36,649 nucleotides of DNA, from the NCBI GenBank assembly GCA_027021335.1, contig JALUUO010000071.1, forward strand, positions 1-36,649, written 5' to 3'. A program made the position numbers and the translations under genes. The notes below the pieces were generated by a model that saw only the letters and a program-made list of their open reading frames with translations, did no database searches and had not been told where the DNA came from. Positions 28,596 to 35,760 of this stretch are shown here, in pieces; within the stretch, counting starts at the first letter, position 1, and every line of letters begins with the position of its first letter. The DNA comes from Nitrospirota bacterium. GTDB lineage: Bacteria; Nitrospirota; Thermodesulfovibrionia; SZUA-242.

Positions 28596-30524
28596 TTACT
28601 GTTTGTAAACCACGCGTCCGCAATCCTGTAGATCGTATCCGCCTAAAGTCTCCACTGTTTTTCGGAATCTACCGTTTTCACGGATAATTTTAAGAAGTGT
28701 ACGTACTTTTTCGTCTTCCATCTGTGTCTCAGGGACTACAAGGTCGTACCTTTCGCTGGCAACCGGAATAAAATCCAGGTCCAGAGCCACTGCAGCGGCC
28801 ATAATCGCAAGCCCGGTATCCGCAACCCCGCTTGCCACAGCGGATGCAACGTTCATATGGGTATACTCTTCCCTGTCGTATCCGTTTACCTCTGCCGGCG
28901 TAATATCAAGCCTTTTAAGATGCATATCTGTAAGAAGGCGGGTTCCGGCGCCCCGCTGCCGGTTAATGAATTTTATCTCCGGCCGCGCCAGGTCTTTAAA
29001 ACCCTGTATGTTCTTTGGGTTTCCTTTTGGAACAAGAAGTCCTTGTTTGCGGTGAACGAGATTTACAAGTACGAGTGGAACTCCCTTAAGAAACCTTTTT
29101 ATAAACGGAATGTTATATTGCCCGGTATGTTCGTCCAGGAGATGTGTGCCTGCCAGATGCGCCTCGCCTCTTTTAATTGCCAGGATTCCTCCCATGCTGC
29201 CCACATGTGCCGATGACAGGCGGTACACTGGCCGCTGCCTGTGAAGCATATCGGAAAGTACGTCAAGGGTGTTGTCGTGGCTGCCGATAAATACCAGTGT
29301 GTTTTCGATCTCATCTTCACTCCGGAGCAGCTCGACGCTCACCCTGCTTCCTGCGCCGATTCCTTCGCTTCCTGCTGGTACTGTTATAATTCCGTCAGCC
29401 TGCACAAGTGACATAACTGCTCCTGCTCCGCGGCTTGCAGGCGTTGCCATCAGGTTGTCTCCTACGCGTCCAAGCTTTACGCGCACAAACTCCTCTACGC
29501 CCATCTTTGATGCCAGGGGCCGCGACAGCGTAGCAGTAAGACTGCCGGCCTCCTCCGGCTGGATCGCTTGGTACGCACTGATAAGATCGTGCAGAAAAAG
29601 ACGCATTGTGACGACTGCAGAGACGGGATAACCTGGAAGGCCGACTACCGGCTTTCCGTTTATTATGGCCAGTAGAACCGGTTTGCCCGGCTTGATGTTT
29701 ACTCCGTGGACGATTACCTTGCCGAGTTGACTTATGACTTCGTAGGTGAAGTCCTTGGAACCTGCGGATGCGCCGGCGTTTACTACCACCAGGTCGTAAT
29801 CCAATACAGCTTGCTTAATGGCCTGTTTCAGGCTTTCATGGTTGTCCGGTACTACCCGGCTCCGCACTGCCGAGGCTCCCCACTCCTTTAGGTATCCTGT
29901 AAGAATCCGTCCGTTGAATTCTATGATGTTACCTGGCCGCAATGGTTCGCCGGGTTGTACGACTTCGTTTCCGGTGGGAATCACTATTACCGAAGGTTTT
30001 CTCCTCACCTTAACCCGGTTGACCCCTGTGGCCAGCATAGCGCCCAGGTCTATGGGCCGTATACGATGTCCCTCGGTAAGGATCAGCTCAGTGGCCACAA
30101 TGTCTTCGCCTATGGTCCGGACATGTTTTAAGGGTGTAACAGGGTTGATAATCTCTACCTTTTCATCTCCAACCGGTTGTACGTCCTCGATCATGATCAC
30201 GGAGTCGAACTCCGCAGGCAGGGGATTACCGGTGTTTACGTATACGTACTGGGTCTGCTTTAACAGGACTATGGGCTTTGATTCGGTCGCTCCGATGGTA
30301 TCTTTGAAGCGTACGGCAATGCCGTCCATGGCAGAGGCATTGTAGAAAGGTGATGAACTATGAGCATAAACGGCTTCAGCAGTAATGCGGCCCAGCGAGT
30401 CATCAACCTGAATCTCTTCAGATGGCAGAGGTTCAAGGCAGCCGTGATTGTTAAGAGCGCTGTTCCAGAGCTTTATAGCCTCATCAAGCGGGGTGTTGTT
30501 TACAAATATGTTTCTTTTTCTCAT
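28596..30524 (-). CDS. moeA: MoeA molybdopterin molybdenumtransferase fused to a PBP-like domain
   Basis: A 642-residue fusion. Residues 1 to about 405 are a full MoeA: SSPFYNASAMDGIAV, VNTGNPLPAEFDSV, VVVNAGASAGSKDFTYEV, and VVGLPGYPVSA. MoeA inserts molybdate (or tungstate) into adenylated molybdopterin. Residues about 410-642 are a PBP-type substrate-binding domain (VFIGSHDNTLDVLSDML, NRQRGAGTRLLTDMHL, VASGVADTGLAIMAAA) like that of ModE- or LysR-linked proteins; fusions of this type are known in anaerobes. The domain could sense molybdate, tungstate or the cofactor, but this is not shown. No ribosome site is clear. A zinc dehydrogenase gene lies 156 bp upstream. Confidence 0.93.
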   Translation of the reverse strand: MRKRNIFVNNTPLDEAIKLWNSALNNHGCLEPLPSEEIQVDDSLGRITAEAVYAHSSSPFYNASAMDGIAVRFKDTIGATESKPIVLLKQTQYVYVNTGNPLPAEFDSVIMIEDVQPVGDEKVEIINPVTPLKHVRTIGEDIVATELILTEGHRIRPIDLGAMLATGVNRVKVRRKPSVIVIPTGNEVVQPGEPLRPGNIIEFNGRILTGYLKEWGASAVRSRVVPDNHESLKQAIKQAVLDYDLVVVNAGASAGSKDFTYEVISQLGKVIVHGVNIKPGKPVLLAIINGKPVVGLPGYPVSAVVTMRLFLHDLISAYQAIQPEEAGSLTATLSRPLASKMGVEEFVRVKLGRVGDNLMATPASRGAGAVMSLVQADGIITVPAGSEGIGAGSRVSVELLRSEDEIENTLVFIGSHDNTLDVLSDMLHRQRPVYRLSSAHVGSMGGILAIKRGEAHLAGTHLLDEHTGQYNIPFIKRFLKGVPLVLVNLVHRKQGLLVPKGNPKNIQGFKDLARPEIKFINRQRGAGTRLLTDMHLKRLDITPAEVNGYDREEYTHMNVASAVASGVADTGLAIMAAAVALDLDFIPVASERYDLVVPETQMEDEKVRTLLKIIRENGRFRKTVETLGGYDLQDCGRVVYKQ

Positions 30525-31757: not shown

Positions 31758-31979
31758 TCAGAAGCAGCTGAGTTGGCATGCCGTGATCCTGATTCCAATT
31801 TGATCAGCCACCTTGCCTACTTCACGCGAAGAGATTTCAGGTCCGAGGGATTCGGCTATAGCCAGAGCATCGGCGCACTTTACGCGGCCGTTTTTTGCGG
31901 CGCTGCGAAGGCGTTTTTCGATCAGCTCCCTCTTTGCTTTTGAAGGCTCCTCATTGATTTTGTAAGTTTTGTTTAGCAC
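31758..31979 (-). CDS. Small cysteine-tailed hypothetical protein
   Basis: About 73 residues from GTG 31979, or 76 from TTG 31988; neither has a clear ribosome site. It overlaps the end of thyX by 7 or 16 bp, so it is probably translationally coupled to it. A charged helix (KAKRELIEKRLRSAAKN) is followed by ADALAIAESLGPEISSREVGKVADQIG, which has a helix-turn-helix-like rhythm, and the protein ends ITACQLSCF with two cysteines at C-x3-C spacing. I recall small uncharacterised proteins of anaerobes ending CQLGCF, but cannot verify a family. Function unknown; a metal or disulfide role for the tail is only a guess. Confidence 0.65.
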   Translation of the reverse strand: MLNKTYKINEEPSKAKRELIEKRLRSAAKNGRVKCADALAIAESLGPEISSREVGKVADQIGIRITACQLSCF

Positions 31980-32731
31980 TTTGTACAAGCTGTTTTTTTC
32001 TGCTTGACAACGCCGTATTTTTTTCTGACTTCTTTAGTCTTTCCGCAGGAATACTCGCCTTCCGGGCAGGGGCCGTAAAGGCAGCCGGGCCCGGATTGCT
32101 GGAAGATTATCGGTGCGGCTTTCTTTACGTATTTCAACATCAGTTCGGCCATTTCTCTTATCTCCCACTGTGCGCGGTTACAGCATCGCACTTTGAAGAA
32201 ATGAAGCAGCTCCCTGGCGTTCATGGTGACCATAATCTTGGTTTCGGCCGCGTTTGGAAGCAGGAACCTGGCGTCCTGATTGGCGGCCTCTCCCTTAATT
32301 CCCTTTTTGTTAAGCTCACTGATGATGTGATTGTATGCCTGCTGCGCTTCATCCATGAACCGGATAAAAGCTTTTCTTAGCTCACGATCCGAGCCAATAG
32401 AGGGAGGTATTACGTAGTCGAATCCATCGGCCTCGTTTACATAGCGTTGAGATTGTTGCGAGTAGCTTGCCAGGCGATGCCGTACAAGCTGGTGCGAGCA
32501 TGCCCTTGAGATTCCCTCGACCGCAAAGGTGAATGACACATGTTCCACAGGACTCATGTGTCCCATCTTCATAAGCCGTTCTACAAATTCTTTCTGACTT
32601 TTCCTGCCCACTTTTTTCTTCAAATCTTCAATATCCGATGGACTGTAGCAGAGCTTGGCGGCCATGGCCACAGCAGCCTCGGGATCAGGTGTGTGTGTAA
32701 GCAGAATTACCTTGAGCTTTGCTTTACGCAT
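31973..32731 (-). CDS. thyX: Flavin-dependent thymidylate synthase
   Basis: A 252-residue FAD enzyme that methylates dUMP to dTMP with methylene-tetrahydrofolate and NADPH. The ThyX signature RHR-x2-S-x3-SQR is present as RHRLASYSQQSQRYV, with HMSPVEHVSFTF ahead of it and MNARELLHFFKVRCC after. The C-terminal tail holds extra cysteines (GPGCLYGPCPEGEYSC, then CTKC at the end), a feature of several anaerobe ThyX proteins. AAAGGATG precedes the ATG. It starts 25 bp after the polyferredoxin gene and overlaps the small gene downstream. Confidence 0.96.
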   Translation of the reverse strand: MRKAKLKVILLTHTPDPEAAVAMAAKLCYSPSDIEDLKKKVGRKSQKEFVERLMKMGHMSPVEHVSFTFAVEGISRACSHQLVRHRLASYSQQSQRYVNEADGFDYVIPPSIGSDRELRKAFIRFMDEAQQAYNHIISELNKKGIKGEAANQDARFLLPNAAETKIMVTMNARELLHFFKVRCCNRAQWEIREMAELMLKYVKKAAPIIFQQSGPGCLYGPCPEGEYSCGKTKEVRKKYGVVKQKKTACTKC

Positions 32732-32756: not shown

Positions 32757-34262
32757 CTAGCCCATACGCATGACCATGGGAAGGCTTAGCAGCCAGAGGT
32801 TTACGGCATTTACAAGTACTAACATAATAAGCGGAACCAGCCGGAATTTCCAACCCCGCTGCCGTTCAGGTATATTTTGTGGTGATGTGCGCATCACAAT
32901 TGCAGTGGCAACAGCCTGGCCTGCCAGCACAAAAAATACCTGGATAATGGCTGTTTTGTTATGGGATAACAGGGGGCTGAACTGCTTGGCCGCAGTGCCG
33001 AATATATTCCAGCCCCAGCCGAAGGGATCCGACAGGACAGGCAGAATATTGCCGCCTTCCATCAGAATATGCATCGAGTTGTGGGCCAGATGCATGAACA
33101 GGGCTATGGCAATAAGAGGGTAGGCCATCCATGCGAATATTTTTACGGTATCTGTTTTGACTAGAAGTTTTAGAAGTGCTGCGGAGATGATCAAAATCAG
33201 GGGAAGTATGCCTGCCGACATTATCATAAGTGCTGTAACAGCAGAATAACCTCTTAAAAAACCTGTCAGGTTTGACAGGCGCAGAAGCAGGGAATCCCAG
33301 ATGGGTGTCATACTGACGGCATGCAGCAGGGTTATCCCCATTATGACCTGAGCCAGCAGCGCCTCGTCAAGCCTGTGTTTGTGAAATTCCATGAGTTCCG
33401 CCGCAGGCGGCCTGAGATTGAAGGCCAGGTTGTCATGGGGGCAGGTTTTTATGCACTCGGTGCATAGTATGCAGTAGGTGTTATTCTGCATGGTGCCTGG
33501 GTATTCGTGTACAGGGCAACCGTACCCTTTTTCATTGCCCCGTATGCAGTCCTTGCCCCGGCAGCTCCGGCAGATCTGCCTGTCTTTAACCCGAAGTTCG
33601 GTAGGGGCTATTGTAGAGTAAAGGCCCATGAGACCGCCTACAGGGCACAGGTAGCGGCAGAAGGCTTTTTTCTCGAAAATAAGTCCCATGGCCACGGCCA
33701 GAAAGATCATCCCTATGGCCAGATAAGCGGTGTACATCGGGTTGGTGATAAGGCCGAAACGAAACTGAATCCAGGTAAACAGCAAAAAGGTCAAAGCAGG
33801 CGGGTAGAGGTTACGAAACATTGCCGGCCATTTCAGCCCCATGCTCAGTGTTTCTTCACGTTTTCCCCAGAAGGTCATCCGTTGCACCCAGTCGCCTATG
33901 GCGGCAAAAGGGCAGATCAGGCACCAGAACCGTCCCATCAGCAGAAAGGTGAAGATAATGCCTGTCCACCAGATGCTCCAGGTTATAACCGTTGCCGGGT
34001 TGCGGCTGGAATTTTGAACACCCCAGAGTCCTGCAGCTATGATTAGCAGGTATAGCAAAACAGCGGGAGCCTGCAATACAAACTGAAAAGGCCGCCGATT
34101 AACAGCCTGTTTAAGCCTTGACGAGGCCAGAAGATTTTTTCTCTTGGCCATCTGCTGCTGCCGAGGTCTGGAAAACAGCATGTAAAGTCCGGTGGTCAGA
34201 AGGACCAGAGCCATCCATGTCGCGTAAAGAACCTCTCTGGAGAATCCGCCCATCTGCATCAT
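32757..34262 (-). CDS. NapH/CcoG-like membrane polyferredoxin
   Basis: A protein of about 500 residues with roughly ten membrane helices and cytoplasmic iron-sulfur sites: FWCLICPFAAIGDWVQR and FCRYLCPVGGLMG (the paired CxxxCP motifs of NapH/RdxB proteins), then CRSCRGKDCIRG with GYGCPVHEYPG, and a classic ferredoxin motif CILCTECIKTCPHDN. The C-terminal third has HLAHNSMHILMEGG, with histidines in a membrane segment that could bind heme. It likely passes electrons from quinol or ferredoxin to an unknown acceptor. The frame is open to TTG 34343, which overlaps the preceding small gene; ATG 34262 (MMQMGGFSREVL) is preferred. Partner reductase unknown. Confidence 0.82.
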   Translation of the reverse strand: MMQMGGFSREVLYATWMALVLLTTGLYMLFSRPRQQQMAKRKNLLASSRLKQAVNRRPFQFVLQAPAVLLYLLIIAAGLWGVQNSSRNPATVITWSIWWTGIIFTFLLMGRFWCLICPFAAIGDWVQRMTFWGKREETLSMGLKWPAMFRNLYPPALTFLLFTWIQFRFGLITNPMYTAYLAIGMIFLAVAMGLIFEKKAFCRYLCPVGGLMGLYSTIAPTELRVKDRQICRSCRGKDCIRGNEKGYGCPVHEYPGTMQNNTYCILCTECIKTCPHDNLAFNLRPPAAELMEFHKHRLDEALLAQVIMGITLLHAVSMTPIWDSLLLRLSNLTGFLRGYSAVTALMIMSAGILPLILIISAALLKLLVKTDTVKIFAWMAYPLIAIALFMHLAHNSMHILMEGGNILPVLSDPFGWGWNIFGTAAKQFSPLLSHNKTAIIQVFFVLAGQAVATAIVMRTSPQNIPERQRGWKFRLVPLIMLVLVNAVNLWLLSLPMVMRMG

Positions 34263-34314: not shown

Positions 34315-34485
34315 TCAGGCCAGAAAACAGTCGTCGCAGACAAGGTCTATGCCGTTGTCGTTCATGGTGTCCCATGGGTGTATCTCTCCACACCTGATAC
34401 AGGCAACCAGTGACGCAGATTTTTCCGCTTCGGTCTTCTCCGGCTTAGTGGTACGGCTATCGGATTTTATGCTTTCTGTTGACAT
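34315..34485 (-). CDS. 56-aa double-CxxC protein
   Basis: A gene hidden by its size: ATG at 34485, TGA at 34315. The N-terminal half is charged and likely disordered (MSTESIKSDSRTTKPEKTE), and the C-terminal half is a compact putative zinc ribbon, CIRCGEIHPWDTMNDNG... then CDDCFLA, with two CxxC pairs 17 residues apart. A GAGG site lies five bases before the ATG. It directly precedes the polyferredoxin gene on the same strand (52 bp from its preferred start) and the two are likely co-transcribed. It may bind zinc or an iron-sulfur cluster and serve that protein; no function is known to me. Confidence 0.7.
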   Translation of the reverse strand: MSTESIKSDSRTTKPEKTEAEKSASLVACIRCGEIHPWDTMNDNGIDLVCDDCFLA

Positions 34486-34515
34486 GTTAACCTCGATCTC
34501 TTTATTTTTCTTAGT

Positions 34516-34800
34516 GGTGTATCCATTTCACTGGCCTTGATGCTCAGCATCAATAATTTTCTTGTACGGCACCGTTGAAATACATACCGCCTGTTCTAAA
34601 AGCCTGTAAAACAGTAATCCTCGAGCCTTTGATGTTCTCTGGGATTGAATCGAAAAGTGTATTCATCAAGATAGTAATTCAATGCAAACCAGGCATCGAA
34701 TTCTTGCAGTGTTTCCGGGTAATCAATTCGGGCAATTGGATGGGGTACAAAATTATTCATGCCCAATTATAACATTAGGCCGGCGAAGTTGATACCCGCC
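34516..34800 (-). mobile_element. Internally deleted IS1595-family relic
   Basis: A 285-bp segment bounded by imperfect inverted ends: 34516-34536 (GGTGTATCCATTTCACTGGCC) and the complement of 34778-34800 (GGCGGGTATCAACTTCGCCGG, inward), matching at about 15 of 21 positions. Inside lies only the two ends of a transposase gene. No clear 8-bp target duplication was found. It sits 30 bp upstream of the 56-aa gene, probably in its promoter region. Confidence 0.6.
34528..34760 (-). pseudogene. IS1595-type transposase remnant
   Basis: On the minus strand an ATG at 34760 opens MNNFVPHPIARIDYPETLQEF, the usual IS1595 N-terminus ((I/D)-(Y/F)-P-x-T-L-x-E-F) just ahead of the zinc ribbon. It runs straight into YLDEYTFRFN, the family's C-terminal motif, so the DDE core is missing. 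A frameshift follows; the tail continues in another frame as ARGLLFYRLLEQAV and ends at a TGA at 34528. The length of 233 nt is not a multiple of three. Family assignment rests on remembered motif similarity. Confidence 0.65.
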
Positions 34801-35157
34801 TTTTACATTATATCGGCACCAGCTAGTAACCGAAACTACTCGGCTTGCCGCCCATATTATAAAATGAAGTCAAGGGTTAAAAATATCAAGATGTGTCATC
34901 TGCGGACTTCCTTGTTTTACGAGAAAAACTTGGTCTTAAAACTTACAGGAAAATGGCCAAGAGAGATAGAGAAGAAAGAAGAATTATCTTTCTTTAAAAG
35001 AGTGTGATTCATTGAAAATATACGGTCAAGCCAATATAGAGTTTACACTAATTTCGACAAGCTTGTTTTTGCGGCGCTGTTATTTATGCAAATATAATGT
35101 TTTTCATATGATATAATGCCGGCTTTAGCACTTTAAACCGAAAGGAGACTTACTATT
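34801..35157. other. Gene-poor region upstream of yceI
   Basis: About 355 bp without a confident gene. It holds the candidate yceI promoter and leader at its right end. At 34864-34938 a plus-strand reading MKSRVKNIK followed, after a one-base shift, by CVICGLPCFTRKTW resembles the start of DUF2256 zinc-finger proteins, and may be a decayed copy. A plus-strand frame of 82 codons (34759-35007) crosses this and shows no family features. Confidence 0.4.
35069..35098 (+). promoter_or_regulatory. Candidate yceI promoter
   Basis: TTGCGG (35069-35074), 18 bp, TATAAT (35093-35098). A second TATAAT-like box lies about 20 bp further on without a good -35. The leader would be about 55 bases. Confidence 0.45.
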
Positions 35158-35760
35158 ATGAAACAGATGAAAGCAATTACTGTTTACACCCTGGTTACAC
35201 TGTTGTTCGTATGGGGCGGTTTATCAGTTCCCACTGTGGAGGCGGAAACCGCAGCCGCAGGCACTTACAAGATTGACCCGGAACATTCTTTTGTACTGTT
35301 CAGCGTAAGCCACTTGGGCATCAGCATCTCGGCAGGCCGCTTCAATGATTTTGAAGGCAATATAATCTTAGCCCCTGGAAAGAACTCAAAAGTTGAATTG
35401 ACTGTTAAAACCGCCAGCGTGGATACCTATATCGAAAAACGCGACAAGCACCTGCGCGGACCGGATTTTCTTGATACAAAGCAGTTTCCCATCATGCGAT
35501 TTGTCTCCAGTAAGGTCGAGTACAATGCTGCTGGCGAACCCGTAAAGTTGACCGGCGAGCTTTTCCTGCACGGCAAGACTAACACTGTGAGCTTCACAGT
35601 AAAACCCATAGGCGCCGGCAAAGACCCATGGGGTGGATACCGGGCCGGATACCAGGCAAACACCGTTATCAAACGCAGTGATTTCGGTATGAAGTATATG
35701 CTTGGTGGTGTCGGTGATGAAATTGATATTACGCTGAATATCGAGGCGATCAAGCAGTAA
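35158..35760 (+). CDS. yceI: YceI-family periplasmic lipid-binding-type protein
   Basis: A 200-residue exported protein. A signal peptide is clear: MKQMK, a hydrophobic core (AITVYTLVTLLFVWGG), and a probable cut after VEA near residue 29. The mature part is a YceI lipocalin-like barrel: GTYKIDPEHSFVLFSVSHLGIS, GRFNDFEGNI, DKHLRGPDFLDTKQFPIMRF, GELFLHGKTNTVSF and the ending GDEIDITLNIEAIK. Family members bind polyisoprenoids or other amphiphiles in the periplasm. AAAGGAGA precedes the ATG. A polytopic membrane gene starts 26 bp downstream, probably in the same operon; cytochrome b561, a frequent partner, is not seen. Confidence 0.94.
   Translation: MKQMKAITVYTLVTLLFVWGGLSVPTVEAETAAAGTYKIDPEHSFVLFSVSHLGISISAGRFNDFEGNIILAPGKNSKVELTVKTASVDTYIEKRDKHLRGPDFLDTKQFPIMRFVSSKVEYNAAGEPVKLTGELFLHGKTNTVSFTVKPIGAGKDPWGGYRAGYQANTVIKRSDFGMKYMLGGVGDEIDITLNIEAIKQ

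Follow-up and report, generated by a model that had tools for sequence, protein, structure and literature searches.

A probable small gene with two CxxC pairs upstream of a NapH-like membrane ferredoxin gene in a Nitrospirota bacterium

The small frame and its neighbours

The window considered here, which is the whole stretch of 36,649 nucleotides analysed from contig JALUUO010000071.1 of a Nitrospirota bacterium, carries on its minus strand (34315..34485) an open reading frame of 56 aa. Its translation, from 34485 to 34315, is MSTESIKSDSRTTKPEKTEAEKSASLVACIRCGEIHPWDTMNDNGIDLVCDDCFLA, with cysteines at residues 29, 32, 50 and 53 that form a C-x2-C-x17-C-x2-C motif (residues 29-53); the first pair reads CIRCG and the second CDDCF, and three residues after the last cysteine the protein ends. 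The start codon is an ATG preceded, at a distance of five bases, by a GAGG Shine-Dalgarno-like site (34491..34494, minus strand), and the energy of the anti-Shine-Dalgarno duplex at this start (-7.5) is equalled or bettered by 4.8% of the 1261 ATGs of the window. An in-frame stop lies 14 codons upstream of the ATG, and the plus strand is closed in the same register (34315-34485).

The first-pass annotation had described a frame with a ribosome site and two CxxC pairs ahead of a polyferredoxin gene, and each of these features was recovered. The charged tail that it had also reported is instead an N-terminal feature, as the charge lies mainly in the first 25 residues (5 basic and 5 acidic), which look disordered; the C-terminal part is acidic and the pI of the whole protein is 4.5. 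To call the frame of unannotatable size was likewise an overstatement, since its 56 codons exceed the minimum of about 30 with which gene-calling programs commonly work.

The frame is followed, 52 nt from its stop and on the same strand, by a gene whose product of 501 aa, counted from an ATG at 34262 (32757..34262), shows Fer4_5 and weak Fer4 matches in Pfam. An alternative TTG start of this gene, at 34343, overlaps the small frame by 29 nt. Neither the ATG (-0.4) nor the TTG (-1.7) has a ribosome site, and alignments to homologues begin at residue 4-5 of the 501-aa form. The closest relatives of the protein are 39% identical, no PDB sequence is related to it at E up to 0.01, and its score against the NCBIfam NapH/MauN family (59.6 bits) is far below the cut-off of 213.05. 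The neighbour is a NapH/NosR-type membrane 4Fe-4S protein and not NapH itself. We also considered a frameshifted fusion of the small frame with the NapH-like protein and rejected it, as the two frames differ and such an N-terminus is absent from the homologues that were read. Among the homologues, one (L033:186-2129) has an N-terminal extension whose extra cysteines resemble, by eye, YHS/TRASH metal domains, and another (L007:43-2727) is an 894-aa frame that joins an N-terminal part resembling a regulator (by eye) to a NapH-like membrane part.

The next gene after the NapH-like gene is thyX (31973..32731, minus strand; Pfam Thy1, 5e-76), whose end is overlapped by a 76-aa TTG frame (31758-31988) that terminates in ITACQLSCF and matches no Pfam family above cut-off. 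Further downstream on the same strand (28596-30524), a MoeA-type protein is fused to a PBP-like domain. On the other side, a yceI gene lies at 35158 in divergent orientation, and the region between it and the small frame contains several short stretches that recall sequences found elsewhere. For instance, 129 nt (34863-34991), which look like a stray fragment, are 98% identical to C34:45828-45957 of the same genome, where the copy overlaps a 74-codon frame beside nucleotidyltransferase-like and VapC-like genes (by eye). About 50 nt (34754-34804) are 90% identical to the very end of another contig of this genome, C7, as a repeat that breaks assemblies would be. Additionally, a TTG frame, also of 56 aa (34596-34766), recalls a shortened transposase; Pfam and plasmid searches with it returned nothing. 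No structured RNA was recognised between 34200 and 35200 (nothing in Rfam at E up to 1), and a promoter reading was rejected, with 4 sites found against 2.3 expected.

Evidence that the frame is a gene

The frame, its start site, its codon usage and its motif are read directly from the DNA. According to a codon model trained on 23 long frames, all from the window itself, the small frame scores +5.2 while the other five frames are negative. Scores as low as this or lower are found in 28% of 397 true-gene windows, and scores as high or higher in 1.0% of 201 open wrong-frame windows. The motif is also unexpected by chance: the window has one ATG-started frame of 40-130 aa with CxxC-x17-CxxC, and 100 Markov simulations of the window had none, frames with two CxxC at any gap of 10-30 appearing at 0.07 per simulated window. 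Since its codon score fits those of genuine genes in the window, and chance would not be expected to yield the motif, the frame is probably a real gene.

It could be argued that this is not a gene, and that the leader of the NapH-like gene merely happens to be open in this frame. The stray gene fragments in the region upstream are consistent with such an idea, and so is the failure of the searches described below to find a homologue. Nevertheless, we consider it unlikely in view of the gene-like codon usage, the good ribosome site and the unexpected motif.

Search for relatives

Searches with the 56-aa protein found one positive genome among 61 relatives and one among 395 genomes of the phylum, in both of these overlapping sets the window's own genome. 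In a collection of genome contigs 174 stretches fitted the pattern, and in viral contigs 41 did, none of which was confirmed in either case. When plasmids and phages were searched by tblastn up to E 10, the best values were E 3 and 0.3. NCBIfam had no match, and the nearest PDB sequence was the ribosomal protein eL40 (E 1.1-1.4). The C-terminal 34 residues alone gave weak matches (E up to 0.5) in 38 of 230 genomes of the class, a count that includes the genome of the window. Beyond the window's own place there were 39 (E 0.04-0.5), and the 19 of these that were read proved to be frames open by chance or zinc-ribbon segments within larger proteins.

The surroundings of the NapH-like homologues led to a similar result. 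In 38 of 39 homologue loci (L040 gave none) the main gene could be chosen by its length and cysteine pattern, although for L034 the choice may have fallen on the wrong frame. None of these 38 analysable loci has a small double-CxxC frame upstream of the homologue, 8 of them holding less than 250 nt of upstream DNA; larger ferredoxin-type frames are found in this position in L034 and L066. When all small frames with two CxxC were collected from both strands of loci L001-L044 and L065-L088, the window's own copies were the sole relatives among them. In the literature consulted on small CxxC proteins with NapH or polyferredoxins and on unannotated zinc-ribbon proteins, the arrangement is unreported. 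The protein is, on these comparisons, best read as specific to its lineage.

These results bear on the proposal of the first-pass annotation that the protein might be a dedicated metal or electron-transfer partner. The data support a genuine small gene whose product probably has a metal site. They do not support a partner dedicated to the NapH-like protein, given that none of the 38 loci, 8 of them with less than 250 nt upstream, has the gene and that no relative was found; the spacing of the cysteines is, moreover, of a kind seen in zinc fingers. In its most explicit form, the proposal would have the protein deliver electrons or metal to the polyferredoxin and bind iron, in the manner of rubredoxin, or an Fe-S cluster. 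Although the two CxxC pairs and the position of the frame, directly before the polyferredoxin gene and in its orientation, would suit such a partner, neither the spacing of 17 residues nor the second pair, CDDCF, appears to agree with the rubredoxin motif, and the gene is missing beside the homologues (with the limited upstream DNA of 8 loci kept in mind). We therefore regard this reading as improbable. The link between the small frame and the polyferredoxin is one of adjacency only and, since none of the other genomes examined yielded the protein, partnership between the two is no more than a suggestion. Conservation of the cysteines in homologous loci, which had been put forward as a test, finds no support, as the small gene is absent from those loci.

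Resemblance to the FmdE finger and predicted fold

A parallel to the cysteine pattern was found in the C-terminal zinc finger of FmdE, in which the CxxC-x17-CxxC spacing, identical to that of the 56-aa protein, is present in 30 of 30 FmdE loci from related genomes, and which shares with it a G-E after the first cysteine pair. Two solved structures show this finger as a treble clef, and the cysteine numbers given for the Syntrophus protein imply a gap shorter than 17 (PMC2954224). By contrast with FmdE, the 56-aa protein has no core domain and has little helix after the last cysteine. It gives no Pfam FmdE match, and its score of 4.6 bits against an FmdE finger profile, built from 27 of 32 extracted fingers (L108, L109, L118, L123 and L096 were omitted as near or exact repeats), was matched by 37 of 500 cysteine-fixed shuffles, so that the similarity is not significant. 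Membership in the FmdE finger family is, consequently, not shown.

FmdE itself is present in 52 of the 61 relatives, including the window's own genome, where it lies on a different contig (C111). One may ask whether the small frame is the last portion still left of a larger gene, FmdE for example, that has decayed in a region of gene remnants. The shared spacing and the tblastn match with the genome's own FmdE (27 residues, 37% identical; E 0.21 in 843 nt) would be in accordance with such an origin, as would the 129-nt upstream fragment with its near-identical copy on another contig. However, the frame has its own ATG, a ribosome site and an in-frame stop 14 codons upstream, no FmdE core is encoded upstream, the genome holds FmdE elsewhere, and the profile score is inside the shuffle range. 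We find this origin hard to credit.

The single-sequence AlphaFold2 model of the protein is of moderate confidence (mean pLDDT 70). Its N-terminal part looks disordered, two short strands follow (26-28 and 35-37), and a short helix begins at the last CxxC. As the protein ends three residues past the last cysteine, this helix is short for a complete treble clef. The best Foldseek match to the model is the FmdE protein 2gvi, at a value that is not significant (E 1.1), with 3d00 at rank 14; among the other matches, zinc-binding domains (PHD, LIM, FYVE, p300/CBP) are prominent. VIA-align gave Z of at most 2.9. We conclude that the protein probably functions in the manner of a small zinc finger of the Cys4 type.

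Other small zinc-finger proteins

Other similarities are weak. The best Pfam match is DUF7685 (PF24734), with 12.9 bits against a cut-off of 27; the relatives have seven matches to this family, all below cut-off, and of the four that were read three fall within frames that resemble multihaem cytochromes (by eye) and the fourth within an FmdE finger. Similarly, phrog_7461 (E 0.0014) and phrog_36620 (E 0.0066) match the cysteine part weakly. Both are small phage proteins without an assigned function, and they differ from the 56-aa protein in lacking whole-length similarity to it. In 229 genomes of the class, phrog_7461 matched two places, one being the C-terminal zinc finger of an FmdE-like protein while the other overlaps the end of an FmdE-like frame in another frame. 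As it also matches the FmdE finger, this profile seems to detect fingers rather than mark a family.

In kind, the 56-aa protein is ordinary. The one-domain zinc-finger µ-proteins, of up to 70 aa, resemble it in having two cysteine pairs and little else in a short chain, and at 56 aa it lies within their size range. They carry two C(P)XCG motifs; CIRCG fits this pattern, CDDCF lacks its glycine, and many variants of it are on record (PMC6562870). Their hosts are haloarchaea, which the host of the 56-aa protein is not. In the same source, brz of Halobacterium, one of these one-domain zinc-finger proteins, is reported to activate the adjacent gene, bop (PMC6562870).

Proposed role

The explanation that we prefer, with modest confidence, is that of a genuine gene encoding a microprotein with a single Cys4 zinc-finger domain. 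In this view, residues 1-25 would form a charged, flexible tail, and residues 26-56 would make up a minimal treble-clef-like structure around a single zinc ion, with the two CxxC pairs, 17 residues apart, as its ligands. The gene is perhaps co-transcribed with the NapH-like gene that follows. By analogy with brz, the zinc-held C-terminal half may bind a partner or a nucleic acid and act on the following gene, so that the protein would be a small binding module that regulates the expression of its membrane iron-sulphur neighbour, or helps to assemble it, and not an electron carrier. An electron-transfer role appears less likely because the cysteine pairs are 17 residues apart and because the gene is missing next to the NapH-like homologues. 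Several observations count against the preferred explanation: no collection searched contains a homologue, so that cysteine conservation is without support; the Foldseek, VIA-align and pLDDT values are modest; the FmdE profile score is inside the shuffle range; little helix follows the last cysteine; and the nearest PDB sequences are those of eL40.

A bolder version, which we consider very doubtful, is that a lineage-specific zinc-finger microprotein controls its ferredoxin neighbour, and that metal- or redox-sensitive translation of the small gene could gate the production of the polyferredoxin. Such gating would be possible because the ATG of the neighbour has no ribosome site of its own and the alternative TTG is inside the end of the small frame.

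Because a second example was not found, we make no wider claim. If the zinc-finger microprotein is real and co-expressed with its neighbour, it would be one more small zinc-finger protein to which no function has been assigned, and its gene offers a concrete candidate for asking whether such proteins act on the adjacent gene, as brz does.
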